Positions 3,735 to 41,359 of a stretch of DNA of 64,000 nucleotides are shown piece after piece (within the stretch, counting starts at the first letter, position 1; each line of letters starts with the position of its first letter). A program made the translations under genes and the position numbers. The notes beneath the pieces were generated by a model, which was not told the origin of the DNA, ran no database searches, and was given only the letters and a program-made list of their open reading frames with translations. Source of the stretch: Bacillus massiliglaciei (lineage in GTDB: Bacteria; Bacillota; Bacilli; Bacillales; DSM-1321); the NCBI RefSeq assembly GCF_900098925.1, contig NZ_LT622360.1, positions 294,384 to 358,383 on the forward strand. Reading direction: 5' to 3'.

Positions 3735-3807
3735 GATCTGTTAGCTCAGTTGGGAGAGCACAACCTTGACAGGGTTGGGGTCGGCGGTTCGAGCCCGTCA
3801 CAGGTCA
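3735..3807 (+). tRNA. tRNA-Val (anticodon GAC)
   Basis: The full cloverleaf folds by eye. Acceptor GATCTGT pairs with ACAGGTC (3735-3741/3800-3806), the D arm is GCTC/GAGC, and the anticodon stem CAACC/GGTTG encloses the loop TTGACAG, giving anticodon GAC (3768-3770). The T arm is GGCGG/CCGTC with loop TTCGAGC. Discriminator is A3807. The next bases are CTA, so the 3' CCA is not encoded and must be added by nucleotidyltransferase. It is a solitary tRNA gene with its own promoter and terminator. The acceptor contains one T-G wobble pair. Confidence 0.93.
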
Positions 3808-3816
3808 CTAATTAAG

Positions 3817-4061: not shown

Positions 4062-4081
4062 GATTAATTAATGTGAAATAA

Positions 4082-4109
4082 AAAACAGACCCTATAAAAG
4101 AGTCTGTTT
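4082..4109 (-). terminator. Terminator of the cold-shock gene
   Basis: An inverted repeat AAACAGAC/GTCTGTTT with a short inner stem, followed on the minus strand by a T-rich run. It lies 18 bp past the cold-shock stop codon. Confidence 0.75.
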
Positions 4110-4126
4110 GTATGATTTATCTAAGA

Positions 4127-4327
4127 TTATGCTTTTTGAACGTTAGCTGCTTGAGCTCCGCGAGCGCCTTGCTCAACGTCAAAAGTAACTTTTTGGCCTT
4201 CGTCTAAAGACTTGAAGCCTTCACTTTGAATTGCTGAAAAGTGAACGAATACGTCGTCTCCATTTTCACGCTCGATGAAACCGAAACCTTTTTCTGCGTT
4301 AAACCATTTTACTGTACCTTGTTCCAT
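4127..4327 (-). CDS. Cold-shock protein (CspB/CspD type)
   Basis: A 66-residue cold-shock domain. RNP-1 (KGFGFIE) and RNP-2 (DVFVHFSAI) are both intact, and the protein opens with [14 protein letters not shown]. It binds single-stranded RNA/DNA and acts as an RNA chaperone. Length and the [10 protein letters not shown] end fit the small Bacillus Csp paralogues; I cannot separate cspB, cspC and cspD by eye. The ATG follows AGGAGG. A promoter about 110 nt upstream (4445-4473) implies the long untranslated leader usual for csp mRNAs. Confidence 0.93.
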
Positions 4328-4444
4328 TTTTGTTGCCTCCTAGTGCGATTGCACAAATGTTACTATTCTTGCCCAAAGTGATTCTCCAGAAGAAAGGTCT
4401 AGCCTTAAACTATTGTTTACACCGAACAAAAATAATTCTTCTTT

Positions 4445-5790: not shown

Positions 5791-5808
5791 TTCACCAATA
5801 TTGGTGAA
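5791..5808. promoter_or_regulatory. 18-bp perfect palindrome upstream of the PRD-regulator operon
   Basis: TTCACCAATATTGGTGAA is a perfect 9+9 palindrome about 90 bp upstream of the regulator gene, in the only sizeable gap before the nine-gene operon. A possible -10 (TATACT, 5843-5848) lies 35 bp downstream, with a weak -35. This is probably an operator, either for the operon's own regulator or for a global one. No protein was matched to it. Confidence 0.5.
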
Positions 5809-5901
5809 TGAATTTGGACTGTAAAGGATTTTATCTACAAGCTATACTTTTTATAAGGTCCTTAGTATTTATAAATATATGAATAAAGTGCGGTGAAGAA
5901 T

Positions 5902-7734
5902 TTGTTAACAACGAGAGAAATTCAAATCGTAACTAAATTACTTGGAGCTGAAAAAACGGTCCGGACTAAAGATTTATCAGCAGAATTCCATGTGAGTACA
6001 AGGACAATCAAATCCGATTTAGACAAAGTCCGAAAATGGTTTCAACAGGAAGGAGTTTCCTTTTACGCTCAGTCAAATAAAGGTTATTGGGTTGAAAGCA
6101 GTAAAAACGAACGGCTGAAACTTTACAGGTTATTAATGGAAATGAAGGGATCGCCTTTATATCCTGATCAGAACATGAGGATTGAGAAAATGTTATATTT
6201 ATTTCTTTCTCACAAGGAGTATATGACAACGGCAGAAATAGCAAATCATTTACTTGTAAGCAGGAATACGGTGATTAGTGATTTAGATTACCTGGAAAAT
6301 TTTATTCAGCCCTGGATGGTGACATTAGAGCGAAAACCGCGTATTGGATATAAGCTTGTCGGCAATGAAATTCATATTCGGCTGCTTTTCGAACATATGA
6401 TCCAAGAAAATTTAAGTCATTTTGATATGTATAAAATCATTTCTCAATTGAAATCTAATGTTTCTAATGATGGAACCAGTGTTTATATTCAGGAGATTCA
6501 ACATGAATTCGATCTAGTGATGGGGTATATCCGCATGGTGCTAGCAAATGATGAGCTGAAAAACGTTCCAAATGCAGAGATATTATCCATTCTGATGCGA
6601 CTGATTATTTTTCTAGTCCGTATTGAATCTGAATTCACGATTGGGAGCTATCGGTTAGCGAAAAAAGGACACTATCATTCTTCTGCCTCTTCTGAATTTA
6701 TTTTTGAGGTAATGGATCAGCTTTGTCAGGAGTTAGGTCTCCCTCTTCTGGAAGATGAATTTCTCTATGTCCATCGTAACTTTTTGTTAGAAGATAAGGA
6801 ACTGAATCTTTTAACGGTTACAGAGGAGATGATTCGTCATGTTAGTCAAAAAGAGCAGATCCCCTACGATAAGGATACTCGGTTATTCAATAATTTACTG
6901 ACCCATTTGTCTTTGCGATTTGAAAAAAATAAAACCTATGTGACAGAAGTCAATCCGTTTACGAATGAGATTAAAAGAAATAACTCATCCTTATTTTCCA
7001 GTATAAAAGAGGCTTGTGAATTCCTTTTTGGAAAGCATTCATGTGTCATTAATGACTCGTTTCTATCCTTCATTGCTTTACACTTCCTCGTTTCATATGA
7101 AAATGGGTTTAAAAAGAAGCCGAGAATTAAAGCCTTATATGTGTGCTCGACAGGGAGAGGTGTTGCCCGTTTAATTAAAAATCGAGTAGAGCGGGAAATC
7201 GGTGAAATTAACATTACTAGTTACTGCTCGGTAATTGAAGCTGATGAAATCAGCAAAAATGAGGATATTGATTTGATTATCAGTGTTTTCCCCATTCAAT
7301 CAAGCATTCCGGTAGTTGTTGTGGAGCCAGTTCCCACTGAAGAAAGTATCCAAATCATTCAAGAAAAGTTTAATGAACTGATAAAGAATAAAGTATGCGA
7401 CACAGAATTTATAATTGAAAAAAATGAAACTTCCGCAAATGAAGATTATGAAATGATCAGTCAAGAAATTATTGTAAAAGGCTTTGAACTTTCTTATGAA
7501 TTTTCGGAATTGTTAAAAGATAAAATTCCAGAGGACAAAAAAAGGGGATTGCAGGTTCATCTGTTTTTAATGGTGCATCGTTATTATTTCCATCAGCAGT
7601 ATGACCAGTTTATTCATCAAACTAAAGATTCTCATGATGAAGGAGTATTAACTCAAATTAATACCATTTTAGAGCGTCATAACATATTTATTAATGACAC
7701 AGAACGGAACGCTCTATTAACATACTTTCAATGA
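5902..7734 (+). CDS. PRD-containing BglG/MtlR-type transcriptional regulator
   Basis: About 610 residues, built like a PTS-linked activator. There is an N-terminal HTH (TREIQIVTKLLG... VSTRTIKSDLDKVR), then a second HTH (MTTAEIANHLLVSRNTVISDLDYL). Two PRD-like helical regions follow (about 170-290 and 300-420). A IIB-like domain comes next, with a Cys near the start of a beta strand (IKALYVCSTGRGVARLIKNRVE), and then a poorly defined tail. Family knowledge: PRDs are phosphorylated by HPr and EIIB and switch activity with sugar supply. A TTG at 5902 follows GGTGA at good spacing; a GTG at 5893 is possible but has no site. Its stop overlaps a possible upstream start of the amidohydrolase, so it probably controls the downstream operon. 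Confidence 0.85.
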   Translation: MLTTREIQIVTKLLGAEKTVRTKDLSAEFHVSTRTIKSDLDKVRKWFQQEGVSFYAQSNKGYWVESSKNERLKLYRLLMEMKGSPLYPDQNMRIEKMLYLFLSHKEYMTTAEIANHLLVSRNTVISDLDYLENFIQPWMVTLERKPRIGYKLVGNEIHIRLLFEHMIQENLSHFDMYKIISQLKSNVSNDGTSVYIQEIQHEFDLVMGYIRMVLANDELKNVPNAEILSILMRLIIFLVRIESEFTIGSYRLAKKGHYHSSASSEFIFEVMDQLCQELGLPLLEDEFLYVHRNFLLEDKELNLLTVTEEMIRHVSQKEQIPYDKDTRLFNNLLTHLSLRFEKNKTYVTEVNPFTNEIKRNNSSLFSSIKEACEFLFGKHSCVINDSFLSFIALHFLVSYENGFKKKPRIKALYVCSTGRGVARLIKNRVEREIGEINITSYCSVIEADEISKNEDIDLIISVFPIQSSIPVVVVEPVPTEESIQIIQEKFNELIKNKVCDTEFIIEKNETSANEDYEMISQEIIVKGFELSYEFSELLKDKIPEDKKRGLQVHLFLMVHRYYFHQQYDQFIHQTKDSHDEGVLTQINTILERHNIFINDTERNALLTYFQ

Positions 7735-7751
7735 TCGGATGTGAGGAGGAA

Positions 7752-8879
7752 ATGAGGGAGGCAACGATTTTAAAGAATGGCTGGGTATTCGACTCAGAAG
7801 CGGAAACCTTTGTCCAAAAAGATGTCTATATCGCTGGGGGAACCTTAGTCAGTGCGGAAAAGGCAGATTTAGATAGCGTAATTGAAATTGATCTTAAAGG
7901 AAGTTATGTCGCACCGGGGTTTATTGATATGCATGTACATGTGTTTGAAACAAAAACCACCCTAGGAATCAATGCGGATAAAGTTGGAATTGATCAAGGC
8001 GTAACAACCATTGTGGATGCTGGCAGTTCAGGGATAGAAGATTTCAAAGATTTTAAACAAACGGTTGCTCAGAAAAGCCTGACAGAAGTGCTGTCCTTTC
8101 TTAATATATCAAAAAAAGGGCTTTGTGAAGGATTATCGGAATTATCTGATATGGATGATTTGATGACTGTTCAGGAACTGACCGAGATTCTTGCTGCTGA
8201 AAAAAACATTGTTGGATTAAAAGCCAGAATGAGCGCTTCAGTTGTAAAGGACAATGGAATCAAACCATTAGAGCATACGAGGAAACTAGCGGATGAAACA
8301 AAATTGCCTATCATGGTCCATATTGGAAATGCCCCGCCTGACATTACTGAAGTCCTCCCCCTTTTGAAAAAAGGTGATATGGTGACCCATGCGTTCCATG
8401 GGAAAAAAGGCGGCATTTTAAATGAAGAAGGTAAGCTGATTTCGGAAGCGCATGAGGCAATCAGTCGCGGGGTTCTATTTGATGTGGGGCATGGTACTTC
8501 CAGTTTTTCTTATCGAACAATGAGAATGTATAAGGAAAAGTATCCATATCCCTTTTCTACCAGTACGGATATTTATATGGGAAACTATCATGAACCAGTC
8601 GGCAGTTTAATGACCACAATGTCCAAATTACTGGCAATCGGTTACAGTCTGGAAGAATTAGTGGCTTCTGTCACCAGCAGACCAAAACGGGCTCTGAAAT
8701 TAGTTGAACAGGGAAGTCTTGAGCCTGGAACAAGAGCAGATATTACTGTCTTTAAGGTTGAAGAACAACATGAAACACTGGTCGATTCTCAGGGTGAAAT
8801 ACTAGAAGTTGATAGAATGATTGTTCCTCAGCTGACAATTAGGGAAGGAAAGGTTGTTTATGAAGCACATGAATACTGA
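7752..8879 (+). CDS. Amidohydrolase/deacetylase family metallohydrolase
   Basis: A 375-residue amidohydrolase-superfamily TIM barrel. Metal-site elements are visible: PGFIDMHVHV (HxH), GLKARMS (candidate carboxylated lysine), MVHIG, VTHAFHGK and STDIYMG (final Asp). It looks like the dihydroorotase-like deacetylase found beside DgaE/DgaF-type genes, and would hydrolyse an amide bond, for example removing acetyl from an N-acylated amino-sugar acid. GAGGAGG lies just before the ATG at 7752; a second ATG at 7731 overlaps the regulator stop but lacks a site. Second gene of the operon; its end overlaps the next gene by 20 bp. Confidence 0.85.
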   Translation: MREATILKNGWVFDSEAETFVQKDVYIAGGTLVSAEKADLDSVIEIDLKGSYVAPGFIDMHVHVFETKTTLGINADKVGIDQGVTTIVDAGSSGIEDFKDFKQTVAQKSLTEVLSFLNISKKGLCEGLSELSDMDDLMTVQELTEILAAEKNIVGLKARMSASVVKDNGIKPLEHTRKLADETKLPIMVHIGNAPPDITEVLPLLKKGDMVTHAFHGKKGGILNEEGKLISEAHEAISRGVLFDVGHGTSSFSYRTMRMYKEKYPYPFSTSTDIYMGNYHEPVGSLMTTMSKLLAIGYSLEELVASVTSRPKRALKLVEQGSLEPGTRADITVFKVEEQHETLVDSQGEILEVDRMIVPQLTIREGKVVYEAHEY

Positions 8880-9213
8880 AAAAATAAATGAAGAAATACA
8901 GGATTTACTTACAAAAAGCGGGGATAGCATACGCTGTAAAAAAGTATTTGACCTTGCTCTCACCCTCTGTAAAGCGGAACAAATCACCCTGACGGATGTT
9001 CAGGCCTTATCCTTATTATCCCATCTTTCAGCGATGGTATGCCGGTCTATTACAGGGGAAAGGCTTGCACCGATCGATCAAACTTTATTTTCTGAAATTT
9101 CTGATGAATCATTTGCGATTGCAAAAAAGGTTAAAGAATTTCTAATCCATTTAGAAGAAGATGAAATTTATTTGCTGTCTATTCATTTTGAAGTGGCCAA
9201 ACAAAATTCTTAA
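8860..9213 (+). CDS. Short stand-alone PRD-domain protein
   Basis: A 117-residue all-helical protein that I assign to the small stand-alone PRD family which, as I recall, accompanies SFCGS/DUF4310-type operons. Conserved elements: IRCKKVFDLALTLC near residue 30, LSLLSHLSAMV near 55, and a C-terminal LLSIHFEVAKQ that ends like a PRD. Candidate phospho-acceptor histidines are those in LSHLS and SIHFE. It has no DNA- or RNA-binding domain. The ATG at 8860 follows AAAGG at 6 nt and lies inside the end of the amidohydrolase gene. Function unproven; it could carry or sense phosphate within the system. Confidence 0.65.
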   Translation: MKHMNTEKINEEIQDLLTKSGDSIRCKKVFDLALTLCKAEQITLTDVQALSLLSHLSAMVCRSITGERLAPIDQTLFSEISDESFAIAKKVKEFLIHLEEDEIYLLSIHFEVAKQNS

Positions 9214-9230
9214 CAAGGGGAGAGGTTAGT

Positions 9231-9605
9231 ATGAGCAGTCAAGTAGTCGTCGTAATCGGAGATCGTTTAGGAAAAGGGCAAAACGTAGCGAAGGGTGTGG
9301 AAGCAGCAGGCGGAAAAGCGATTGTTGTGGATGGATTTGGGGCAGATATGCGCTTAGGCGAAGAGATGAATCTTCATAATGCAACGATAGGCATCTCATT
9401 TTGCGGAAGCGGCGGTGCCGGAGCCATTACAGCTCAGTCAAAGTATGGATATAAAGCAAGATACGGTATGCGTTCTATCGATGAAGGAATTACAGCGATC
9501 CGTGAAGGAATGCAAGTGTTAGGCTTTGGATTCATGGATGTTGAAGAGCTGGGAAAAAGGATCACAGAAGAATATATCAGAATTAATGGGACCTCTAATG
9601 TATAA
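9231..9605 (+). CDS. SFCGS-family glycine-rich protein
   Basis: A 124-residue soluble protein. It opens with a Rossmann-like VVVVIGDRLGKGQNVAKG loop and carries the signature ISFCGSGGAGAITAQSKYG near residue 57. A cysteine within a glycine-rich loop after a beta strand is also how the phospho-cysteine of PTS EIIB domains is placed. I remember the family only as a conserved hypothetical of this operon type. It is followed with overlap by the DUF4312 gene. A phosphotransfer role is my inference from the cysteine loop and from the PRD proteins beside it. Confidence 0.75.
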   Translation: MSSQVVVVIGDRLGKGQNVAKGVEAAGGKAIVVDGFGADMRLGEEMNLHNATIGISFCGSGGAGAITAQSKYGYKARYGMRSIDEGITAIREGMQVLGFGFMDVEELGKRITEEYIRINGTSNV

Positions 9606-9900
9606 AAAGTTAACACATAAAGTCCGTATCGAAGGTAAAGGAAATATAGAAGACCAGACCATAGCAAATGCACTTGGCAGGATTCAAAAGAAGGTAAACG
9701 CTGAACTTAAAGGGATGATTATCAGGATTGAGCCAATGAAGATTGAAATCGTTGAGGCAACCGAGGAAACATATAATGAGCGATTTTTAATGCTGTTTTT
9801 TCCAAGAAAAAGAAGTCTTTTTAGGATAGTGATGGATGTCGAAGTCGACCTGTTTATCCTGGATACAGATCAAATCAATTTTATAGAAAAGAAAAGGTAA
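9598..9900 (+). CDS. DUF4312-family small protein
   Basis: About 100 residues. The start is placed at the ATG at 9598, which overlaps the SFCGS stop (translational coupling), because MYKKLTHKVRIEGKGN gives the expected N-terminus; the upstream in-frame extension lies wholly inside the previous gene. Features: ALGRIQKKVNAELKGMIIRIEP, then a C-terminal hydrophobic stretch (FLMLFFPRKRSLFRIVMDVEVDLFIL) that may be a beta sheet or a membrane-contacting segment. No catalytic motif is visible. The name rests on its fixed position between SFCGS and DUF4311 genes. Confidence 0.65.
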   Translation: MYKKLTHKVRIEGKGNIEDQTIANALGRIQKKVNAELKGMIIRIEPMKIEIVEATEETYNERFLMLFFPRKRSLFRIVMDVEVDLFILDTDQINFIEKKR

Positions 9901-9916
9901 GAGGGGGGATGGATGC

Positions 9917-10702
9917 ATGGATTTTCTGATCATATTAGTGAAATCATTAATCATCGGCGGATTAGTTGGTTTTGGCACGGGTGCTGGTGCAGCACGGATG
10001 TTTCATGCTCCGAAAGTTCAGGGGATGGGGGCATTTAGAACGCTGGGGGAATTAAATGCCTGTGCTGGTGATTCTGTATCCCATTTTTCGTTTGGATTAG
10101 GGTTTTTCTTTAACGCATGGGCCTCATCTGTAGGTGCAGGTGCTTTTACTCAAGATGTAGATCACCGGATTATTCCAAACTGGGCAGCTGCTATTCTGAT
10201 TGGTAAAGGAAAACGGGTAGAAGATACCTTACATAATCCTAAGAAAATGGCTATTGTCGGGGCCATTGTTGGTGCGATTGTCGTTTCTTTTCTAAACTCC
10301 ACTGCAGCAGCGATTCCTGAATCTATGCAAGCGATAGCCGTTAAAGTATTAGTACCAGCAGCAAATCTATTAATCAATCCCGTTATGCCAGTTATTTTTT
10401 GGCTGGCGGCTTTGGATGCAGGGAAACGTTCAGGCACATGGGGGACCATTTTTGGAGGATTGGCTCATTTGATTATGGGGAATGCTGTTCCGGGTGTTGT
10501 ACTTGGAATATTAATCGGGAAAGGCGTAGATGATAGCGGCTGGAATCGAGTGACGAAAACTCTATTAGTTTCTGTGATTATTCTATTTGTATTGAGCGGC
10601 TTCTTCCGCGGTTTCGATATGAATTTACTAACTGCTGTACATTTAGATGTTCCTGCATGGCTAACTGACTTACATAATTTAATTGGCGGAGGAGGGAAAT
10701 AA
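9917..10702 (+). CDS. DUF4311-family polytopic membrane protein
   Basis: A 261-residue, glycine/alanine-rich integral membrane protein with about six or seven hydrophobic segments. It starts with LIILVKSLIIGGLVGFGTGAGAARMFHAP; a loop carries GELNACAGDSVSHFSFGLGFFFNAWASS, where Asp/His/Ser would be suited to ligand binding. The end is LIGGGGK. GAGGGGGG lies upstream of the ATG. It pairs with the DUF4310 protein 3 bp downstream, and together they look like the two membrane subunits of a permease. No transport substrate is established. Confidence 0.75.
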   Translation: MDFLIILVKSLIIGGLVGFGTGAGAARMFHAPKVQGMGAFRTLGELNACAGDSVSHFSFGLGFFFNAWASSVGAGAFTQDVDHRIIPNWAAAILIGKGKRVEDTLHNPKKMAIVGAIVGAIVVSFLNSTAAAIPESMQAIAVKVLVPAANLLINPVMPVIFWLAALDAGKRSGTWGTIFGGLAHLIMGNAVPGVVLGILIGKGVDDSGWNRVTKTLLVSVIILFVLSGFFRGFDMNLLTAVHLDVPAWLTDLHNLIGGGGK

Positions 10703-10705
10703 TAG

Positions 10706-11356
10706 ATGGAATCTATCAATATGAAAAACTTTTGGTATGGGGATTGGTCGTTTCCAATTTTTGTAGCTTTTTTATCTTCTGGAATTTTCGCCGGAACACA
10801 TATGTACTATGTCCATCACATTGGGGCATTTAATGATGTGGCAATTGTAGCTATGCTGCAAGCGGGGATGGAAGGGGGAGGCTATGGTGCTGCAGCAGCC
10901 TTTGGGGCAAGCTTTTTATTTGCTCGAATACTGGAAGGCTCTCTTGTTGGGATTCTGGATATTGGCGGTTCTTTGCAAACAGGTATTGGCATTGGAGTAC
11001 CGGCATTAATGCTGGGATCTGGATTTATCGCACCGCTCACTAATTTTCCTCTTGCACTTATAACAGGAGCGATTCTTGGTCTGCTGGTTGGTTATATTGT
11101 GATAGGCTTGAAAAAATTCACTGTTGGTAAAGCAAATTCTACGTTTGGATCTGATGTAATGATGGGAGCAGGCAACCAATCCGGGCGATTTTTAGGACCG
11201 CTTATTGTTCTATCTGCCTGCGGGGCCTCTATTCCAATTGGTATTGGCTCTATTGCTGGAGCAGCAATCTTTTATGCATGGAAAAAACCAGTGGCTGGAG
11301 GCGCTATATTAGGCGCCATGATTCTTGGGGCTATCTTCCCTATAACTTTGGAGTGA
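10706..11356 (+). CDS. DUF4310-family polytopic membrane protein
   Basis: A 216-residue hydrophobic protein with roughly six membrane segments and many Gly/Ala motifs (MLQAGMEGGGYGAAAAFGASFLFAR near residue 50; LDIGGSLQTGIGIGVPALMLGSG; MMGAGNQSGRFLGPLIVLSACGAS). The conserved polar residues GNQSGR and MEGGGYG inside membrane regions suggest a translocation path. It is the second membrane subunit after the DUF4311 protein, with 3 bp between them. Paired polytopic subunits plus two small cytosolic partners resemble the EIIC/EIID plus EIIB layout of mannose-class PTS permeases, by analogy only. Confidence 0.75.
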   Translation: MESINMKNFWYGDWSFPIFVAFLSSGIFAGTHMYYVHHIGAFNDVAIVAMLQAGMEGGGYGAAAAFGASFLFARILEGSLVGILDIGGSLQTGIGIGVPALMLGSGFIAPLTNFPLALITGAILGLLVGYIVIGLKKFTVGKANSTFGSDVMMGAGNQSGRFLGPLIVLSACGASIPIGIGSIAGAAIFYAWKKPVAGGAILGAMILGAIFPITLE

Positions 11357-11361
11357 TAAAA

Positions 11362-12486
11362 ATGGAAACATCTATATTTGAAACATTTGGTTTGAAAAAA
11401 ATTATTAATGCCAGTGGAAAAATGACTGCACTTGGGGCCTCTGCTGTGACAGATAATATTGCTGATGCAATAAGAGACGCTGCCCAAGGATACGTTGATA
11501 TGGATGAATTAATCGAATATGCAGGGACAATTATTGCTCATCATACAGGAGCAGAAGATGGCTGTCCGACCGTTGGAGCGGCAGCGGGGATTGCGATTTC
11601 CACTGCAGCGATTATTGCGGGAAAAAACTTAAACTTAATTGAAAGGATCCCTAATTCCGATGGATTACAGAATGAGATCATTATTCAAAAAGGGCATAAT
11701 GTCCATTTTGGCGGAAGTATTGACCAAATGATCCGTTTGGGAGGCGGAGTTGTTGTTGAAGCCGGCAATGCCAACAAGGTAGAAATGGAACATATTGAAG
11801 GTGCCATTACCGAAAAAACAGCGGGACTCATTTATATTAAATCCCACCATGCTGTTCAAAAAGGAATGCAGTCTATTGAAACGATGCTAGGGATTGCTAA
11901 AAAACATGGGATTCCTTTAATCATTGACGGTGCAGCGGAAAACGACTTTAGAAAGTATGCCGCCATTGGTGCAGATATTGTGATCTATAGCGGCGGGAAA
12001 GCGTTAGAAGGACCGACATCAGGATTTATTTGCGGGAAAAAGGAATACATGGAGGCCTGCCGTAAGCAATACAAAGGGATCGGCCGGGCAATGAAGGTCG
12101 GAAAAGAATCTATTTCTGGATTAATTGTTGCTTTGAATGAATATCCATTCAAGGATGCCGGTGTTGATAAACAGATCAGCAGTATGACAAAGCTGTGTGA
12201 AACCCTCAATCAAATAAATGGTCTTTCTTGTACCATTCAACAAGATGAAGCAGGACGGCCAATTTACCGGGCGCAAATTGAAGTGATGAGGGAAGCCGGC
12301 ATTACGGCAGAACAGTTACTGCATCAGCTTGAAAACGGAAATCCAGCTATCTATTTACGGCATCACTATGTAAACGTTGGTATCCTTTCAGTGGATCCTC
12401 GTCCGCTGTTAGATGGACAGGAGGATAGTATTGCCAGAGAAATTATTTCCATTATAAAGGAGTCTAAGAAATATTATGCCAAATAA
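11362..12486 (+). CDS. dgaE: DgaE-family PLP-dependent ammonia-lyase
   Basis: A 374-residue fold-type I PLP enzyme of the SelA-like DgaE family (D-glucosaminate-6-phosphate ammonia-lyase). The PLP lysine lies in IVIYSGGKALEGPTSGF; PLIIDGAAEND holds the Asp that contacts the pyridine nitrogen. The N-terminus (LKKIINASGKMTALGAS) matches the family. Reaction in Salmonella: 2-amino-2-deoxy-gluconate-6-phosphate to 2-keto-3-deoxy-6-phosphogluconate plus ammonia. The ATG at 11362 follows GGAGTGA; the longer frame lies inside DUF4310. It overlaps the aldolase gene by 11 bp, fitting consecutive steps. Confidence 0.85.
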   Translation: METSIFETFGLKKIINASGKMTALGASAVTDNIADAIRDAAQGYVDMDELIEYAGTIIAHHTGAEDGCPTVGAAAGIAISTAAIIAGKNLNLIERIPNSDGLQNEIIIQKGHNVHFGGSIDQMIRLGGGVVVEAGNANKVEMEHIEGAITEKTAGLIYIKSHHAVQKGMQSIETMLGIAKKHGIPLIIDGAAENDFRKYAAIGADIVIYSGGKALEGPTSGFICGKKEYMEACRKQYKGIGRAMKVGKESISGLIVALNEYPFKDAGVDKQISSMTKLCETLNQINGLSCTIQQDEAGRPIYRAQIEVMREAGITAEQLLHQLENGNPAIYLRHHYVNVGILSVDPRPLLDGQEDSIAREIISIIKESKKYYAK

Positions 12487-13195
12487 CAAAAATGTAATTT
12501 TTAATTGTATAGCAAAGGACGTGGAAAATGCCAAAGAAATCGTCCAAGTTGCAGGTAACCGTGTACTGATAGGTATTATGGTTAAGTCATTTCCGGACAC
12601 TCAGAGTGCAGTTGATGAGGTAACCCTTTATCAAGAACAAAACATTCCGGTCTCTGTAGGATTAGGGGCGGGAGATCCTGCAGTTTGGAAACAGGTAGCC
12701 GACGTCTCTGCAGCAACTTTACCTAAACATATTAATCAAGTCTTTCCGGCCTCAGCCTATACTTTAGGCCGACTGGAAGAGGCAGGGGCAGCGAATACGA
12801 TCATAAATGCATTAGTCAAGCCTTCTGGAATTCCCGGTCAGGTGATTATTGCAACCGGCCCGGACAGTTCCCGATTTGAAGAAACTGTTTCAGCTGACTT
12901 AGCGGCAGTAATGTTAGCGGAAATGGGAGTGGATTCTGTTAAATTTTATCCGATTGAAGGGGATAAACGATTGGAAGAAGTAGCAGCGATGGCGAAAGCA
13001 GCGGCCGATGCAGGTATTAAATATTTTGAACCAACTGGAGGCATTACAGTAGAAAATGTCGATGTGATTGTAAAAACTTGTTTGGAAAGCGGGGCAGAAA
13101 CAGTCATTCCGCATTTATATACATCATTGGTAGACAGGGACACGGGTGAAACAAAAATAGAATACATGAAGAAGCTAATCGCAATGGAGTGGTAG
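12476..13195 (+). CDS. dgaF: DgaF-family 2-keto-3-deoxy-6-phosphogluconate aldolase
   Basis: A 239-residue TIM-barrel aldolase of the DgaF/KDGP family, distinct from the Eda-type KDPG aldolase at 40.7 kb. Blocks: VLIGIMVKSFPDTQSAVDEV, IPVSVGLGAGDP, LGRLEEAGAANTIINALVKPSG, VDSVKFYPIEGDKRLEEV with the presumed Schiff-base lysine, and YFEPTGGITVENVD. It would cleave KDPG, made by the ammonia-lyase, to pyruvate and glyceraldehyde-3-phosphate. It overlaps the upstream gene and is followed by a terminator, so it is the last gene of the operon. Confidence 0.85.
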   Translation: MPNNKNVIFNCIAKDVENAKEIVQVAGNRVLIGIMVKSFPDTQSAVDEVTLYQEQNIPVSVGLGAGDPAVWKQVADVSAATLPKHINQVFPASAYTLGRLEEAGAANTIINALVKPSGIPGQVIIATGPDSSRFEETVSADLAAVMLAEMGVDSVKFYPIEGDKRLEEVAAMAKAAADAGIKYFEPTGGITVENVDVIVKTCLESGAETVIPHLYTSLVDRDTGETKIEYMKKLIAMEW

Positions 13196-33225: not shown

Positions 33226-34387
33226 TAAACGTCAGTTTTGGGGATATCGGCGTCCGGACGGCCGTGTCGGTGTTCGGAACCATGTATTGATTTTGCCGAC
33301 CATTACGTGTGCAACGCAGACAGCTCAGCGGGTAACAGAACTTGTCAGCGGAACCGTTACATTTATCCATCAGCATGGCTGCGCACAAGTAGGCAAGGAT
33401 TATGATCAAACGGCGAGAACCTATGCCGGCATGGGAATGAATCCTAATGTATATGGTGTCATTGTGTTAGGTCTGGGATGTGAAACCCATCAAGCACACA
33501 GGATTGGAGACGAGATCGCAAAGTGCGGCAAACCTGTTGAAACCGTTTCGATTCAAGAGCATGGCGGTACATTGCAAACCATTGCTGAAGTGGCGAAAAT
33601 CGCGGTCAAAATGGTCCAGGATGCCTCGATGGTTCAGCGGGAATTATGTGATTTCAGTGAGTTAATCGTCGGCACAGAATGCGGCGGGTCGGATGCATGT
33701 TCCGGCCTGTCGGCGAATCCGGCTGTAGGCCGCACAAGCGATCTAATAGTGGAACAAGGCGGAACGGCCATCTTGGCGGAAACAACTGAATTAATTGGCG
33801 CGGAGCATTTACTCGCAGATCGGGCAGCTAATGATCAGGTTGCGAAAAAGGCATATGCTGTGATTCGTATGATGGAAAACCGATCAATCGAAATGGGCGT
33901 TGATATCCGCACGGGAAATCCGAGTCCCGGAAATATAGAGGGGGGCTTGAGCTCTTTAGAGGAAAAATCGCTGGGAGCCTCAGCTAAGTCCGGTACGACA
34001 CGCCTTGAAGAAGTCATTGATTATGCACAGCAGCCAACTAAGAAGGGTCTTGTGTGGATGGATACTCCTGGTCATGATATTGAGCAGTTAACCGGCATGG
34101 TGGCAGGAGGCGCACAGGTTGTTCTTTTTACGAGCGGCAGGGGCACACCGACAGGATCGCCGATAGCACCTGTCATCAAAATTTCTACGAATACTCCAAT
34201 GTTTGAGCGCATGAGTGAAAATATGGATCTCGATGCAGGAACAATCGTGGACGGAATTGAAACAGTCGATAACGTCGGGCTTAGAATCATGGATGAAATT
34301 CAGCAGGTTTCAAATGGAAAGCTGACAAAATCGGAGATTCTGAAACAGCATGACTTTGGAATATGGCGTATCGGCCCAACATTTTAA
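33206..34387 (+). CDS. UxaA-family dehydratase, large subunit
   Basis: A 393-residue partner of the small SAF subunit. Marks: [85 protein letters not shown], and [21 protein letters not shown]. Family members dehydrate altronate, galactarate or sulfolactate using a metal cofactor. The true substrate is open; the sugar-acid context favours an altronate-like C6 acid giving KDG for the kinase at 39.7 kb. The start may be GTG 33206 or, with the better site GAGGTGA, TTG 33215. Confidence 0.88.
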
Positions 34388-34406
34388 TAAAAAAGGAGCT
34401 AATAAA

Positions 34407-35876
34407 ATGATTACAACTACTTTTACAGCCAAAACTTATCAAAATTATATCAATAACGAATGGGCGGACACGATTGCTGAAGATACAATCGTCAGCATTA
34501 ATCCCGCGGATAAAGAGCCTGTCGGGTATGTACAAAAATCCACCAAAAGTGATTTGGAAAAAGCGGTGGAGGCAGCCCATCATGCGAAAAAATCCTGGCG
34601 CAGACTGGGACAGTCAGCAAGAGGCCAGCTCCTTTTTAAAACAGCCAATATTTTAGAAGAAAATCTGGATGAAATTGCAGAGACAATGACCCGTGAAATG
34701 GGGAAAACCCTGCCGGAAGCAAAAGGGGAAACCGCAAGAGGCATTGCCATTCTCCGTTATTACGCCGGTGAGGGCATGCGTAAAGAAGGAGATGTCATTC
34801 CATCTTCTGATAAAGACGCGCTGATGTTTACAAAACGCACACCGCTGGGAGTTGTAGGGGTTATTACACCATGGAATTTCCCGGTAGCCATTCCTATTTG
34901 GAAAATGGCTCCTGCCTTGGTTTATGGCAATACAGTTGTGTGGAAACCGGCTACAGAAGGTGCGGTAACTGCGGCAAAAGTAATGGAGTGTTTTGCAAAG
35001 GCAGGCTTCCCGGCCGGGGTTATAAACTTCATAACAGGCTCCGGCTCAGTAATCGGGCAGGGACTGATTGACCATCCTCTTTTAAATGCCATTACATTTA
35101 CTGGTTCTGAGCAGGTAGGTAAGGGAGTGGCTCAATCAGCTGCGGCACGGGGAATTAAATTTCAGCTTGAAATGGGCGGCAAAAACCCTGTCATTGTAGC
35201 GAAGGATGCGAACATTGACCAGGCAGTAGAAGCAGTGATCAGCGGAGGATTCCGCTCTTCCGGACAAAAATGCACAGCATCAAGCCGTGTCATCGTTGAA
35301 TCTTCTGTCTTCGAGGAATTTAAAGAGAAGCTGGTTAAGGAAACAGAAAAAATCACCGTCGGAAATGGGCTGCAAGAAGGCATTTGGATGGGGCCGTGCG
35401 CGAGTGAAAGCCAATTCAATACCGTCAATGAATATATAGAAATAGGCAAACAAGAAGGAGCAAAGCTTGTATATGGCGGTGAGGTATTGACAGGAGACGA
35501 GTATGATAAGGGCTTTTTCGTGACACCTGCTATTTTTGAAAAAGTCAGTCCGGATATGAAAATTGCTCAGGATGAAATCTTTGGCCCGGTTATTGCTCTT
35601 ATTAAAGCGTCGGATCTAGAAGAGGCTATCAGCATTGCGAATCATACAAAATATGGATTAAGTGCATCCATTTTCACTTCTAATATCAGCTCCCTTATGG
35701 AATTTATAGATGAAATCGAAGCAGGTCTTGTGCGCATCAACGCAGAGAGTGCGGGAGTAGAGCTTCAGGCTCCATTCGGAGGAATGAAAGCTTCCAGTAC
35801 TGGATCACGCGAACAGGGAGAGGCAGCCAAGGAATTTTATACGTCTATTAAAACGGTGTTTATAAAAGGCTCTTAA
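34407..35876 (+). CDS. Alpha-ketoglutarate semialdehyde dehydrogenase (YcbD/GucD-like)
   Basis: A 489-residue NAD(P)+ aldehyde dehydrogenase. The catalytic Cys is in [15 protein letters not shown] and the general-base Glu in [17 protein letters not shown] binding is at [23 protein letters not shown] and [11 protein letters not shown]. Long identical-looking blocks ([31 protein letters not shown] and the [14 protein letters not shown] end) are those of B. subtilis YcbD/GucD, which oxidises alpha-ketoglutarate semialdehyde. It would close the oxidative branch to alpha-ketoglutarate. ATG 34407 after AAAGGAGC. Confidence 0.9.
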
Positions 35877-35893
35877 TTTAAAAAACTTACAGA

Positions 35894-35927
35894 TCTTCCC
35901 CGGGAAGGATATATTCCGGGGGAGTTT
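35894..35927 (+). terminator. Intra-operon hairpin (possible attenuator)
   Basis: A GC-rich imperfect stem (CTTCCCCGGGAA with TTCCGGGGGAG) followed by only four T, inside the operon between the dehydrogenase and aldolase genes. It may lower expression of the distal half or stabilise upstream mRNA ends. Confidence 0.5.
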
Positions 35928-35978
35928 TCGAAATAATCCATTTTGGAGATCTAATCAGTAAACAAGAGGAGGGAGAAC

Positions 35979-36890
35979 ATGAAATTTCACGGAATTATTC
36001 CGCCGGTCGTAACGCTGTTTGATGAAGCAGGGAATTTAGATTTAGAGATGAATAGAAGGTATTTGGATCAGCTAATTTCAAAAGGTATTGACGGGATCCT
36101 GCTAATGGGAAGCTCAGGTGAGTTTTCTTCTCTCTCTGCTGAAGAGCGAAAGCTGTACGTTCGGGAAATGATCAAGCATATTAATGGACGTGTCTCTGTC
36201 ATGGTGGGCGTTGGCCATACTGCATTGAAAGAAGTGCTTGACTTGATCTCTTATGCGGAACTTCAAGGGGCAGATGGAGTACTGGTTGTAAACCCATATT
36301 ATTGGAAGTTCTCGGAAGAGCAATTATTCCGTTTCTATTCGATCGTTGCCGATCATACCAAACTGCAGGTGTTTATCTATAACATTCCGCTTTTAACCGG
36401 ACAGAATCTGTCGGTTGAGCTGATCAAATCATTGGCCGAAACCTTTCCAAACATTAAAGGAATAAAAGAAACGGTTACCGATTTCGGCCACTTACGTCAA
36501 GTGCTCACCGAAGTAAAAAAAGTCCGCAGTGACTTCCTGGTCTTCTCTGCTTTTGATGAACATCTGTTTCCTGCTCAGATGATCGGAGCCGCAGGCAGCA
36601 TTAATGGAACAGCCTGCTTTTTACCGGAGGTTTCGGTTGGTGTCTATACGGCTTATCGAAAAGGAGAGTTGGCAGATGCAGAACAGCATCACCAAAAGAT
36701 TTCGCAGCTGATGGACATTTATTCATACGGTCCGACTTTTTTTACTCAAATCAAAGAAGCTGTTCACTGCCGGTGGTTTGATACACCTGCCGGGCATCGG
36801 GCTCCCTGCGATGTCTTTCCGGAAGATTTAAGAAGTAAAGTAGCACAGCTGCTGAAAAAAATAGAATGGAAAGAAGGCGTTCAATCATGA
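35979..36890 (+). CDS. DHDPS-family 2-keto-3-deoxy sugar-acid aldolase/dehydratase (YjhH/YagE-like)
   Basis: A 303-residue class I aldolase of the dihydrodipicolinate synthase superfamily: IIPPVVTLFDEAGNLD, ILLMGSSGEFSSLSAEER, VLVVNPYYWKFSEEQLFRFYSIVAD, VFIYNIPLLTGQNL with the Tyr of the site, and IKGIKETVTDFGH with the Schiff-base lysine. Members with a YjhG-like dehydratase beside them, as in E. coli, split 2-keto-3-deoxy-xylonate to pyruvate and glycolaldehyde; others act on KDG or dehydrate ketodeoxyglucarate. Its ATGA junction couples it to the next gene. Confidence 0.82.
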   Translation: MKFHGIIPPVVTLFDEAGNLDLEMNRRYLDQLISKGIDGILLMGSSGEFSSLSAEERKLYVREMIKHINGRVSVMVGVGHTALKEVLDLISYAELQGADGVLVVNPYYWKFSEEQLFRFYSIVADHTKLQVFIYNIPLLTGQNLSVELIKSLAETFPNIKGIKETVTDFGHLRQVLTEVKKVRSDFLVFSAFDEHLFPAQMIGAAGSINGTACFLPEVSVGVYTAYRKGELADAEQHHQKISQLMDIYSYGPTFFTQIKEAVHCRWFDTPAGHRAPCDVFPEDLRSKVAQLLKKIEWKEGVQS

Positions 36891-37834
36891 AAGAATCCCG
36901 TGAGTTACTTAAACAATTAGGCTATCCGTCAACAGATCTGACGGAACTTCCCACATCTAATAAAACGTTTCCGGACGGAGCGCAATACCGGATTGAGCTT
37001 CCAAGTGTAGAAGGTCCGGTTGCTTTAAAAGAAACGCTGGATGAAATTGACCGGCTTGGTTTGAAAATTCATCGGATCTCCCAGGGGAGCGGCATTATGC
37101 TTCAAACAGATGAAGAAATTAAGGAAATGTGTGAGCTGACTGCAGAAAGAGGAATGGAGCTCAGCCTGTTTGTCGGCCCGCGCGGTTCATGGGATGTAAG
37201 CGCCGGACCTTTTACCCCAGGCGGAAAAACGCAGGGAATCCGGCATGAAGGCGCCGATCAGCTTGTCTATGCCATGGAAGACTTAAAAAGGGGAGCGGCA
37301 CTCGGACTGCGCGGTGCTTTAGTGGCAGATGAAGGACTGCTGCTTTTAACAAAAGAAATGAAGCGCAGCGGCCAGCTGCCGGAAGATTTTGTTGTAAAGG
37401 TCTCTGTGCAGATGGGTTCTGCCAATCCAGTTTCCGTGAAATTGATGCAAGATATCGGCGCAGATACGTACAATGTCCCTCCGGCATTAACGCTGTCTAA
37501 ACTTGCAGCCATTCGGCAGGCAATTGACATACCGATTGATTTATATGTAGAAGTACCGGATACATTCGGCGGATTTATCCGCTATTATGAAATTCCGGAA
37601 ATTATCAGGGTTTTGGCTCCGGTCTACATAAAATTCGGCCTTCGCAACCATCCGGACGTCTATCCATCAGGGAAACAATGGGAAAGCACAAATATTTCCT
37701 TAACAAAGGAACGAGTTCGACGTGCATCACTTGGAATACAAATGATCGAAAGATACTATCCAGAAGCCCGGACCTCCGAACTGGGAGCAGAAGGACTTGG
37801 AATCGCAAAAATTCAAAAACCGGCAGCGAAATAA
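36887..37834 (+). CDS. TIM-barrel-like protein of unknown function in the sugar-acid operon
   Basis: A 315-residue soluble protein, translationally coupled to the aldolase (ATGA). It starts SRELLKQLGYPSTDLTELPTS, and then alternates strand/helix: LKETLDEIDRLGLKIHRISQGSGIML, MELSLFVGPRGSWD, RGAALGLRGALVADEGLLLL, KVSVQMGSANPVSVKLMQDIGADTYNV, and DLYVEVPDTFGGFIRYYEIPEIIRVLAPVYIKFG. This is a beta/alpha barrel pattern. I recall similar proteins being labelled U32-peptidase-like, but the usual U32 cysteine motif is absent. A sugar-acid isomerase or epimerase role is possible; function unknown. Confidence 0.6.
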   Translation: MKESRELLKQLGYPSTDLTELPTSNKTFPDGAQYRIELPSVEGPVALKETLDEIDRLGLKIHRISQGSGIMLQTDEEIKEMCELTAERGMELSLFVGPRGSWDVSAGPFTPGGKTQGIRHEGADQLVYAMEDLKRGAALGLRGALVADEGLLLLTKEMKRSGQLPEDFVVKVSVQMGSANPVSVKLMQDIGADTYNVPPALTLSKLAAIRQAIDIPIDLYVEVPDTFGGFIRYYEIPEIIRVLAPVYIKFGLRNHPDVYPSGKQWESTNISLTKERVRRASLGIQMIERYYPEARTSELGAEGLGIAKIQKPAAK

Positions 37835-37877
37835 CGAACGGGCAGGCCTGATAATAAATGAGAGGAGTCAAAATGAA

Positions 37878-38837
37878 ATGACTTTTAAAGTGCTGTTAAC
37901 AGATTATGAGTTTGCTGATTTACGATATGAAGAGGAAGTTTTTCAGGAAAGCGGGCTGGATATTGAATTCATTAAAGCTCAATGCAAAACAGAAGAAGAA
38001 GTGATGGAACAGGCGCAGGAGGCGGATGCCATATTGAATCAATATGCCCCGATCTCACGCCGTGTCATTGAATCGCTTCATCAAACAAAAATCATTTCGC
38101 GTTATGGGGTCGGTGTTAATACGATTGATCTGGATGCAGCGAAAGAAAAGGGGATCACAGTTGCAAATGTACCGGATTATGGAATGGAAGAGGTTTCTAA
38201 CCATGCCCTGGCATTATTGCTGTCATGGGCCCGGAAGGTAACGCTGTTAAATAATGAAGTGAAAAAGGGGAATTGGGATTTCAAGTCCGGAGTGCCGATT
38301 AACCGGTTCGACCAGCAAACGGTCGGAGTGCTTGGATTTGGACGGATTCCTCGCCGTTTTATTGAAAAAGTAAAACCGCTCGGTTTTCAAGTTGCAGCCT
38401 ATGATCCGTTTGTAACAGAGAAAGAAATGGCAGCGGCAGGCGTACAAAAAATGGAGCTTGATGAAATAATTCGTACAGCGGACTATTTGTCCGTACATGT
38501 TCCGCTTGTGAAGGATACGTTCCATTTAATTAATGAGGAAAGACTTCAGCAGATGAAGCGGAATGCGGTGATCATTAATACGGCCCGCGGCCCGATTATA
38601 GATGAAAAGGCTTTGGCAGATGCACTGGAAAAGGGCATTATTGCCGGGGCTGCATTGGATGTGACGGAAGAAGAGCCGGTCAGCCTCCATAGTCCGCTTC
38701 TCAAAATGGATCAGGTTCTTATCACTCCTCACAGTGCCTGGTATTCAGAAGAAGCCATGATAGAACTTAGGCAAAAAGCTGCTAAGAATATCGTCCAAGT
38801 TTTAAGCGGTGATAGAACACCATACAGCCTAACGTAA
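37878..38837 (+). CDS. D-isomer-specific 2-hydroxyacid dehydrogenase (CtBP-like)
   Basis: A 319-residue NAD-dependent 2-hydroxyacid dehydrogenase. The catalytic set is visible: Arg in IINTARGPIIDEKAL or nearby, Glu in VTEEEPVSLHSP, and His in VLITPHSAWYSE. The NAD loop reads TVGVLGFGRIPRRF, where the usual third Gly of GxGxxG is Pro, as in some CtBP-type enzymes. It would oxidise or reduce a 2-hydroxy/2-keto acid, such as an aldonate to its 2-keto form. The ATG at 37878 follows GAGGAG. It is followed after 17 bp by the second FAH gene. Confidence 0.85.
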   Translation: MTFKVLLTDYEFADLRYEEEVFQESGLDIEFIKAQCKTEEEVMEQAQEADAILNQYAPISRRVIESLHQTKIISRYGVGVNTIDLDAAKEKGITVANVPDYGMEEVSNHALALLLSWARKVTLLNNEVKKGNWDFKSGVPINRFDQQTVGVLGFGRIPRRFIEKVKPLGFQVAAYDPFVTEKEMAAAGVQKMELDEIIRTADYLSVHVPLVKDTFHLINEERLQQMKRNAVIINTARGPIIDEKALADALEKGIIAGAALDVTEEEPVSLHSPLLKMDQVLITPHSAWYSEEAMIELRQKAAKNIVQVLSGDRTPYSLT

Positions 38838-38854
38838 GAAATGGAGGAATGGAT

Positions 38855-39718: not shown

Positions 39719-39742
39719 AGAAAAGAGAAGGAAGGGCTCAAA

Positions 39743-40699
39743 ATGGATGTAGTAACAATTGGCGAAACGATGGCGTTGTTTACCCCCAATGAAGAAGGAC
39801 CGCTGCGCCACGCCCGTTCTTTTTCCATGAAGTTTGGCGGGGCGGAATCAAATGTGGCGATCGGATTAAGCCGTCTCGGACATAAATCCCGCTGGATCAG
39901 CCGCCTTGGCATGGATGAATTCGGAGATGCGATGCAGGCTTTCATTCGGGGAGAAGGCGTCGATGTCTCATATGTTACACGCGATACAAATGCCCCGACT
40001 GGTGTTTTCTTTAAAGAATTCCGGCGCCTGAATGACACCAGAGTCTATTATTATAGAAAAAACTCAGCGGCCAGTAAAATGAACGCTGAGATGCTCCCGG
40101 CAGTAGCTATCTCCGATTCGGCCTATCTTCATCTAACAGGCATTACGCCGGCTCTCAGCGAATCATGCCGTGAGCTTCTGGATAAAGCGCTCCGCATTGC
40201 TAAGGAGAATCAGATGAAGATCGTCTTTGATCCGAATATCCGTCTGAAATTATGGGAGGACAAAAGTGAAGCCCGCCGTTTTATGAAAAAGTATGCTTCA
40301 GAAAGCGATTTGGTCCTGCCGGGGATTTCTGAGGCTGAATTCTTATTTGGTGCCTGCTCACCGGAGGAATATGCGAATCTTTTTCATGAACTCGGAGCAG
40401 AAACAGTGCTTTTAAAAATGGGAGAAAAAGGTGCGCTTGTTTCCTCTTCTTCCGTGCCAAAAACTTTTGTACCTGGATTCCAGGTGGAGCGTGTTATTGA
40501 CCCGGTCGGTGCGGGAGATGCATTCGCTGCCGGAGTGCTTTCAGGTCTCCTTGACGGATTGCCGCTAATTGAAGCAGTACGCAGGGGCAATGCGATGGGA
40601 GCAATGGTTACCATGGTAAATGGAGATGCAGAAGGGCTGCCGGACCGAAACGACTTAGCTTCGTTTATGAATGGCAGTCTGGAAGATGTAAAGAGATAG
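39743..40699 (+). CDS. kdgK: 2-keto-3-deoxygluconate kinase
   Basis: A 318-residue PfkB/ribokinase-family kinase. Marks: VVTIGETMALFTPNEEGPLRHA, KFGGAESNVAIGLSRLGHKSRWISRLGMDEFG, and the C-terminal ATP-site motif VIDPVGAGDAFAAGVLSGLLDG with the catalytic Asp. The opening GETMALF is typical of KdgK. Reaction: 2-keto-3-deoxy-D-gluconate plus ATP to KDPG. It is directly followed by the KDPG aldolase, giving the classic KDG route to pyruvate and glyceraldehyde-3-phosphate. RBS GAGAAGGAAGGG. Confidence 0.93.
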   Translation: MDVVTIGETMALFTPNEEGPLRHARSFSMKFGGAESNVAIGLSRLGHKSRWISRLGMDEFGDAMQAFIRGEGVDVSYVTRDTNAPTGVFFKEFRRLNDTRVYYYRKNSAASKMNAEMLPAVAISDSAYLHLTGITPALSESCRELLDKALRIAKENQMKIVFDPNIRLKLWEDKSEARRFMKKYASESDLVLPGISEAEFLFGACSPEEYANLFHELGAETVLLKMGEKGALVSSSSVPKTFVPGFQVERVIDPVGAGDAFAAGVLSGLLDGLPLIEAVRRGNAMGAMVTMVNGDAEGLPDRNDLASFMNGSLEDVKR

Positions 40700-40714
40700 G
40701 AAGGTGGAAAAAAC

Positions 40715-41359
40715 GTGGTAATTACAGAAAGGCTGAAACAAGAGAAATTAATTGCCGTGATCCGGGGGGCCAGACCGAATCAAATTGTTCCGATTGCCCG
40801 GGCTTTGAAAAAAGGCGGGATACGTGTACTTGAAATAACAGCAGAAACGCCCGGATTCCGTCAATCGATTGAAACAGTAAAGAGTGATCTTGGCGATAGC
40901 ATTATTGCCGGTGCCGGCACTGTACTGGATGCAGAAACGGCCCGGATGGCGATTCTGTCTGGTGCAGAATTTATCGTCTCTCCGACAGTCAGCCCTGACA
41001 CAATAAATATGGCAAAGCGCTATGGGATTATCAGTATGGCAGGAGCTTTAACCCCCACTGAAATATTGACAGCGTATGAACAGGGAGCGGACATTATTAA
41101 AGTGTTTCCGGCCAGCACAGTTGGTCCTGGTTATTTTAAGGATATAAAAGGTCCCCTTCCGCATATCCCGCTGATGCCGACAGGCGGTGTCAATCTTGAG
41201 AATCTCGGTGACTTCTTAAAGGCCGGAGCTGTCGCCGTCGGCCTGGGGGGTTCCTTGGTCAATGCGGCGAAATTAAATTCGGCTGAAGACTATGAACAAT
41301 TAACAGAAACAGCTAAACGCTTTTCAGAGGCTGTCCAAAAAAGCAAAGTTCTTTTATAA
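40715..41359 (+). CDS. kdgA: KDPG/KHG aldolase (bifunctional Eda type)
   Basis: A 214-residue class I aldolase: KLIAVIRGARPNQIVPIARALKKGGIRVLEITAETPG (Glu in site), IIAGAGTVLDAETA, EFIVSPTVSPDTI and IIKVFPASTVGPGYFKDIKGPLP, where the Lys forms the Schiff base. It cleaves KDPG to pyruvate and glyceraldehyde-3-phosphate. It starts with GTG 16 bp after kdgK and is the last gene of the locus, followed by a strong terminator. A different family from the DgaF aldolase at 12.5 kb, although both can give the same products. Confidence 0.93.
   Translation: MVITERLKQEKLIAVIRGARPNQIVPIARALKKGGIRVLEITAETPGFRQSIETVKSDLGDSIIAGAGTVLDAETARMAILSGAEFIVSPTVSPDTINMAKRYGIISMAGALTPTEILTAYEQGADIIKVFPASTVGPGYFKDIKGPLPHIPLMPTGGVNLENLGDFLKAGAVAVGLGGSLVNAAKLNSAEDYEQLTETAKRFSEAVQKSKVLL

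Follow-up and report, generated by a model that had tools for sequence, protein, structure and literature searches.

Which proteins import the substrate, and which phosphorylate it, when an operon encodes enzymes of amino-sugar-acid breakdown without a recognizable permease? This question is raised by a nine-gene operon of Bacillus massiliglaciei (GCF_900098925.1), found in the stretch of 64,000 nucleotides (nt) that we analyzed as a whole (NZ_LT622360.1, positions 294,384-358,383, forward strand; hereafter the window). The operon encodes a regulator (REG), an amidohydrolase (AMI), a small PRD protein (PRD), the SFCGS protein, DUF4312, two membrane proteins (DUF4311 and DUF4310), a DgaE-like lyase and a DgaF-like aldolase. 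In Salmonella, the D-glucosaminate system consists of a mannose-class phosphotransferase system (PTS) permease, DgaABCD, together with DgaE and DgaF (PMC9529869; this and the other papers are cited from excerpts). Both systems share DgaE/DgaF-type enzymes with most catalytic residues kept, whereas the operon in the window has no gene for a DgaABCD permease within 5893-13195 and carries instead a module of four DUF-type proteins and an added amidohydrolase. Our leading, if tentative, explanation is that the operon is a PTS-coupled uptake-and-breakdown unit for an amino aldonate, in which the PRD-SFCGS pair and DUF4311/DUF4310 would carry out the transport. PTS-coupled uptake is proposed because some relatives carry their own HPr and EI genes beside the operon.

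PTS-protein queries from E. coli and from the Paenibacillus locus L031 were run against 82 and 86 loci, and HPr and/or EI genes were found near the module in 14 of the 86, although these loci are related and do not represent independent events. In six Paenibacillus loci (L031, L032, L047, L051, L053 and L059), HPr and then EI lie just upstream of REG on the same strand, with HPr/EI/REG gaps of about 45 nt in L031 and an EI-REG gap of about 200 nt in L051. Each of these six genomes gives 3 to 4 EI matches, so that the EI gene of the operon stands beside 2-3 others and is extra. REG is preceded by HPr without EI in L022, L025, L055 and L057; HPr lies downstream of DgaF in L058 (Brevibacillus), and both HPr and EI lie downstream of the operon in L125. 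Moreover, on two related Bartonella plasmids the operon (PRD, SFCGS, DUF4312, DUF4311, DUF4310, AMI, DgaE, DgaF, REG) is closed by a 671-amino-acid (aa) HPr-EI fusion, and the copy checked, that of plasmid HY406, contains an HPr domain and a full EI with the active-site motifs of both. Plasmid HY406, whose gene table is incomplete, has no EII among the features annotated so far; this result concerns the plasmid only. EI was also detected in 41 of 42 genomes with SFCGS (39 of 40 without the duplicates G244/G454 and G414/G457, which give identical places; 42 of 44 genomes covered, L003 and L015 left out), compared with 96 of 249 sampled Bacillota genomes, a comparison confounded by taxonomy. The PTS connection that the earlier note had suspected from the PRD domains is thus borne out, and the survey it called for turned up a single genome with the operon in which no EI was found, a 2.8-Mb metagenome-assembled genome (L076). 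PTS coupling is therefore better supported, through genomic association, than it was from the window sequence alone.

The residues expected of a phosphoryl relay are also conserved. His57 and His111 of the PRD protein (numbered from the codon at 8854) are present in 60 of 60 aligned sequences, comprising the window copy and 59 PRD genes recognized by phmmer and a start-codon filter; in a separate count, 21 of 80 loci were dropped by a motif filter that itself required the first histidine. Cys58 of the SFCGS protein is found in 80 of 80 sequences, which share no invariant histidine. In one locus of one genome (L127/L122), PRD and SFCGS form a single protein of 249 aa. PRDs are known as regulatory domains, and PRD is not an EIIA family. 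Since HPr, a histidine carrier and a cysteine carrier are all found, a PTS donor-acceptor chain is present in form, by way of other families. As for the regulator, H338, H397, C418 and H556 each occur in 53 of 53 sequences (the window copy and 52 homologs scoring over 200 bits). Its HTH, Mga and one PRD domain exceed the Pfam cut-offs, and its PTS_IIB match reaches only E 0.074, below the cut-off. Among proteobacterial regulators (21 linked to the module, aligned with an ascorbate-linked reference regulator of L029), the two PRD histidines and the EIIA-type histidine are kept in 22 of 22, including all 21 module-linked ones, and the EIIB-type cysteine in only 3; Pfam names a PTS_EIIA_2 domain in the two tested (L145 and L148).

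Gene content, contiguity, the HPr/EI genes next to the module in some lineages, the PRD-SFCGS fusion, the conserved His and Cys and the RpiB fold of the SFCGS model are computed results; transport, the direction of phosphoryl transfer, whether the substrate is phosphorylated and which substrate it is are inferred. DUF4311 and DUF4310 would form the membrane permease, and DUF4312 may be an accessory subunit. The small PRD protein would be phosphorylated by HPr on its histidines and would either pass the phosphoryl group to the SFCGS protein or use it to control that protein, which has a predicted RpiB-type fold and a single invariant cysteine and would couple to the membrane part. The sugar acid would enter, phosphorylated or not; the amidohydrolase would then remove its acyl group and the DgaE-like lyase its amino group before the DgaF-like aldolase cleaves the product, with REG presumably sensing the state of the relay.

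The four-protein module is conserved far beyond chance. A DUF4311 scan of genome contigs gave 517 relatives, the best 79 of which were kept as loci, and 102 SFCGS matches were drawn from these and from other searches, so that several loci are counted twice (e.g., L118/L129, L119/L128, L121/L126, L122/L127 and L123/L125); one extra match, L124, is RpiB and was dropped. Each of the 102 matches is accompanied in its locus by DUF4311 and DUF4310 genes of the same strand, DUF4312 is adjacent to SFCGS in 101, and the membrane pair is also present in all 13 loci found through SFCGS alone (L118-L123 and L138-L144). The enzymes are less fixed: AMI, DgaE and DgaF were all not found in the stretch examined of 5 of the 79 loci (L022, L024, L025, L063 and L066), which retain the regulator, the four module proteins and PRD, the last as a fusion with REG in L024; the module is therefore a unit of its own. 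Six SFCGS matches have no scored PRD upstream; L122/L127 are the one fusion locus, and we read the others (L047, L062, L075 and L140) as artefacts of open reading frame (ORF) starts. An SFCGS-DUF4312 fusion in L033 resembles a frameshift and was set aside. The family occurs in Bacillota, Proteobacteria and alphaproteobacterial plasmids and is uncommon: matches over the cut-off were obtained from 7 of 398 genomes of Bacillota and from 7 of 299 of Pseudomonadota, with the centre genome counted in each figure.

Coordinates of the nine operon genes and of one sugar-acid kinase-like gene in the window
Feature	Position	Strand	Assignment	Basis
REG	5893..7734	+	PTS-type transcription regulator: HTH, Mga, PRD, EIIB-like stretch with Cys418, C-terminal region with His556	Pfam
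AMI	7731..8879	+	Amidohydrolase/deacetylase, EF_0837/PRK09237 group	NF006689, 411 bits (cut-off 371)
PRD	8860..9213	+	Small single-PRD protein, proposed phosphocarrier	TIGR03582 (PRD protein EF_0829), 112 bits (cut-off 69)
SFCGS	9231..9605	+	RpiB/LacAB-type predicted fold, invariant Cys58 (codon 9402-9404)	PF14272/TIGR03577
DUF4312	9598..9900	+	100 aa from the ATG at 9598	PF14189/TIGR03578
DUF4311	9917..10702	+	Polytopic membrane protein, proposed permease subunit	PF14188/TIGR03580
DUF4310	10706..11356	+	Polytopic membrane protein, proposed permease subunit	PF14187/TIGR03579, hydropathy segments
DgaE-like	11362..12486	+	Pyridoxal phosphate (PLP) ammonia-lyase	TIGR01437, 490 bits (cut-off 385)
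DgaF-like	12476..13195	+	KDGP aldolase	PF07071 and TIGR03581, over cut-offs
KDG-kinase-like PfkB	39743..40699	+	Outside the operon, possible alternative phosphate source	

The nine genes fill 5893-13195 with spacings of 3-17 nt or overlaps of 4-20 nt, the longest being the 20 nt shared by AMI and PRD (PRD ATG at 8860). ORF coordinates agree with the same-strand unit that the earlier note had described, Pfam and NCBIfam with its naming of the nine genes, and family searches with its statement that the operon holds neither a PTS subunit nor a kinase; its placing of the four uncharacterized proteins in the position of the transporter is supported as well, with transport itself as the proposal. 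The NCBIfam models TIGR03577 to TIGR03582 match side by side, all six over their cut-offs. Together with TIGR03583, they are hypothetical equivalogs of the EF_0829-EF_0839/AHA_3910-3917 neighbourhood, which has the same gene families; the models assign no function, and AMI is the only one of the seven below its cut-off here (TIGR03583, 355 bits, E 5e-106, cut-off 432). The gene neighbourhood has thus already been catalogued and is not new. In the literature collection searched, DUF4310, DUF4311 and DUF4312 did not occur, and "SFCGS" appeared only in papers unrelated by title; EF0838 is named in two E. faecalis papers, DUF2620 in one paper and yhfT, yhfU, yhfY or yhfX in three.

Neither enzyme of the operon reaches the cut-off of its equivalog model (DgaE, 420 against 600 bits; DgaF, 265 against 300 bits), which sets the operon apart from the Salmonella system. 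In manual docking of DgaE, Arg301, Arg332 and Arg346 lie near the substrate phosphate and Arg226 near the carboxylate (PMC9529869). In an alignment of the window copy and 68 of 71 homologs (three short ones dropped), the equivalents of H162, H163, the PLP lysine and R301/R332/R346 are conserved in 69 of 69 sequences, and the position of Arg226, a further difference from Salmonella, is Lys in the window protein (K in 54, R in 13 and G in 2 of 69). The phosphate pocket was considered as a marker of a phosphorylated substrate and rejected, as it is kept in all 69, including those of the kinase-bearing loci L055 and L057.

Several observations weigh against PTS-coupled transport. The conserved arginine cluster of DgaE does not discriminate who phosphorylates the substrate. 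A PfkB kinase travels with the enzyme genes in 4 of 86 loci (L055, L057, L079 and L147), which counts against group translocation because a kinase would be superfluous had the module already phosphorylated the substrate. A KDG (2-keto-3-deoxygluconate)-kinase-like gene and a KDPG (2-keto-3-deoxy-6-phosphogluconate) aldolase gene (39743-41359) also lie 26.5 kb downstream of the operon. In addition, HPr/EI genes were not found in 72 of 86 loci in the stretch examined (at most 10 kb per side, shorter in some), those loci that have them stem from few lineages, and HPr/EI could serve the PRD regulator only, a REG-PRD fusion being known. No module subunit appears to resemble a known EII in sequence, and the SFCGS protein is predicted to fold like an isomerase.

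An explanation of somewhat lower probability, ranking close behind PTS-coupled transport, is that the PTS is regulatory only: REG and PRD would respond to phosphorylated HPr, the module would be a non-phosphorylating secondary transporter, and a chromosomal KDG kinase would phosphorylate the deaminated product ahead of the aldolase step. The ong pathway for GlcNAc1A (N-acetyl-D-glucosaminate) in Pseudoalteromonas works in this manner, with an SSS transporter and with KdgK acting on the deaminated product (PMC9537276). The PfkB kinases beside the enzymes, the KDG-kinase-like and KDPG-aldolase genes of the same genome and the REG-PRD fusion all favour it, as does a kinase upstream of REG in L072 and L128, which we take to be of the DUF1537 type. 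The HPr-EI fusion on the Bartonella plasmids and the PRD-SFCGS fusion are not easily explained by regulation alone; moreover, Pfam linked DUF4311 to no transporter family, and its model matched no solved transporter at E <= 0.001. The earlier note had named a dedicated kinase as a point that would refute its PTS-like permease: there is none in the window operon, although kinases of the PfkB and DUF1537 types accompany six loci elsewhere. Of that permease idea, the transporter place and the PTS link stood, and the view of SFCGS as an EIIB look-alike was not supported.

The latter view finds no support in structure prediction, the check that had been suggested for it. The SFCGS model suggests a fold unlike PTS subunits, its best match by far being the RpiB/LacAB isomerases (first 20 rows 9.2-12.4; the weakest of that group, 8.3 and 8.2, are on a par with the 7.9 of the first unrelated row), and Cys58 sits after the third strand, not the first as in the proposed EIIB-like placement. 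No EIIB is among the 50 matches listed, which does not exclude one, and the hhalign comparison with an EIIB profile of 10 sequences gave E 0.48. The positive control for that comparison aligned the EIIB-like stretch of REG with EIIB and gave no better than E 5.5e-4, over 27 columns. SFCGS matched the same REG stretch at E 0.016 and RpiB matched it at E 4.2e-4 over 13 columns, which means that the two folds resemble each other in their Cys-Gly-rich loops. EIIB likeness was set aside on fold and profile. At the sequence level, SFCGS and RpiB match at E 0.017 and then 0.0033, while an unrelated pair (RpiB-DgaE) reaches 0.032; because this signal is near the level of unrelated pairs, the kinship rests on the fold. 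SFCGS matched the other operon families at E 0.09 or worse.

It is conceivable, but improbable, that SFCGS acts on the imported substrate as an isomerase or epimerase of sugar acids, in the manner of RpiB/LacAB, and that only DUF4311/DUF4310, perhaps with DUF4312, transport. SFCGS shares its predicted fold with RpiB/LacAB, and its cysteine aligns with that of RpiB. However, SFCGS is shorter and lacks the C-terminal stretch, so that the later histidine and the C-terminal arginines of RpiB, which have catalytic and phosphate-binding roles, have no counterpart. SFCGS also always occurs with the membrane proteins here, persists in the enzyme-less loci and is fused to PRD in one genome.

The remaining alternative, that the module is a membrane-bound sensor or enzyme complex under PTS control, agrees with the five enzyme-less loci and with the lack of an identified fold for DUF4311, but it is very unlikely given that at least one enzyme gene is present in the stretch examined of the other 74 of 79 loci and that no other uptake system was found in the window, Bartonella or Klebsiella operons. 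The DUF4311 model is all-helical (pLDDT 77.9, pTM 0.61, moderate) and has no PDB match; its result rows contain no PTS subunit, which proves nothing. DUF4311 and DUF4310 gave no hhalign match to mannose, lactose or ascorbate EIIC/EIID (sets of 2 to 5 sequences, no true positive control), and the mannose-class comparison is too weak to exclude kinship. The invariant columns of DUF4312 are E, P, A, E and R only, with no His or Cys.

With regard to the substrate, the amidohydrolase suggests an N-acylated compound, and a lactonase between DgaF and REG, found in Klebsiella alone among the 86 loci, fits an aldonate; our guess is an amino aldonate, most likely N-acylated, e.g., N-acetyl-D-glucosaminate. 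GlcNAc1A is released by oxidative chitin cleavage (PMC12017989). The ong pathway runs through its chemical steps in the same sequence (deacetylase, deaminase, KDG, KDPG) but differs in a D-aminoacylase-like OngB, a D-amino acid deaminase-like OngC, its SSS transporter and a kinase within the cluster (PMC9537276); two Aeromonas are described as lacking a clear OngB and OngC in the excerpt of PMC11653859. A separate or extended enzyme cassette with PfkB, or with a lactose-type EIIC and MupG, occurs in L055, L057, L064, L079 and L147 (E. faecalis), and duplicated dgaEF genes have been described in E. faecalis (PMC7396535).

Lactose-type EIIC genes lie near the module or the enzymes in L147 (10626-17341), L064 (11603-14342), L079 (22-5989) and L020 (12858-14183), alongside MupG in L147, L064 and L079 and the PfkB kinase in L147 and L079. 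This hints at a disaccharide precursor in these lineages. Six loci (L040, L060, L072, L125, L127 and L128) have a Cof-type HAD phosphatase after DgaF.

Finally, the E. coli yhf operon (yhfZ-yhfY-yhfX-yhfW-php-yhfU-yhfT-yhfS) likewise has a small PRD protein, an SFCGS-like YhfU with a cysteine, the membrane protein YhfT, a PLP enzyme and php, presumably an enzyme of the amidohydrolase superfamily. SFCGS and YhfU match at E 1.2e-5 and 8e-6 over 110-118 columns (YhfU sets of 5 and 8 sequences). This relationship, with a single-PRD protein and a membrane protein next to YhfU too, speaks for the PTS-coupled reading. By contrast, no homology to DUF4311 or DUF4310 was detectable for YhfT (hhalign E 0.75 and 0.048, a kinship we rejected as unsupported), YhfY lacks the second histidine and the other enzymes differ. 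A wider proposal, which we regard as rather unlikely, is a new superfamily of PTS permeases with PRD for EIIA, an RpiB-fold cysteine protein for EIIB and DUF4311/DUF4310 (or YhfT) for EIIC, which would import and phosphorylate amino-sugar acids and comprise an SFCGS branch and a YhfU/DUF2620 branch, the latter including yhf of E. coli K-12. To our knowledge, the PTS permease families are regarded as a closed, short list. If true, this would be a new transport architecture, with HPr/EI in some lineages yet without a recognizable EII, would provide a role that can be tested for several DUF families and for the yhf operon, and would recast PRD from a regulatory domain into a possible phosphocarrier. 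If the PTS is only regulatory, a new family of transporters serving amino aldonates, GlcNAc1A among them, would still be indicated.

Some further observations concern the relatives and the surroundings of the operon. In L188 (4188-13538), a yhf cluster is flanked by ChbA-, ChbB- and ChbC-type PTS genes. A sub-threshold YhfT profile match in L131 (6480-6947, minus strand; E 5e-5, one in-frame stop) overlaps a permease-like ORF that is possibly a distant transporter relative of YhfT. Another sub-threshold match, to the DUF2620 model in L153, was rejected, since the protein resembles what we take to be DapF and its CGTGA motif is probably convergent. The Bartonella sp. HY406 plasmid (L149, L145) also carries type VI secretion genes, TonB receptors and duplicated replication/partition genes.

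Within the window, the KDG-kinase-like gene, at 26% identity (E 3.9e-9), is the only match that the cassette kinase of E. faecalis has in this genome, and it scores 223 bits against NF040938, below the cut-off of 400. It belongs to a sugar-acid cluster on the plus strand (34350-41359), which also encodes alpha-ketoglutaric semialdehyde dehydrogenase (over its cut-off), DapA-family and FAH-family proteins, KDPG aldolase (eda, over its cut-off) and a 322-aa ORF (36866-37834, plus strand) with no NCBIfam match at E 1e-30. The operon is preceded by a tRNA-Val gene (3735-3808, plus strand) and a cspA thermoregulator RNA (4080-4442, minus strand).

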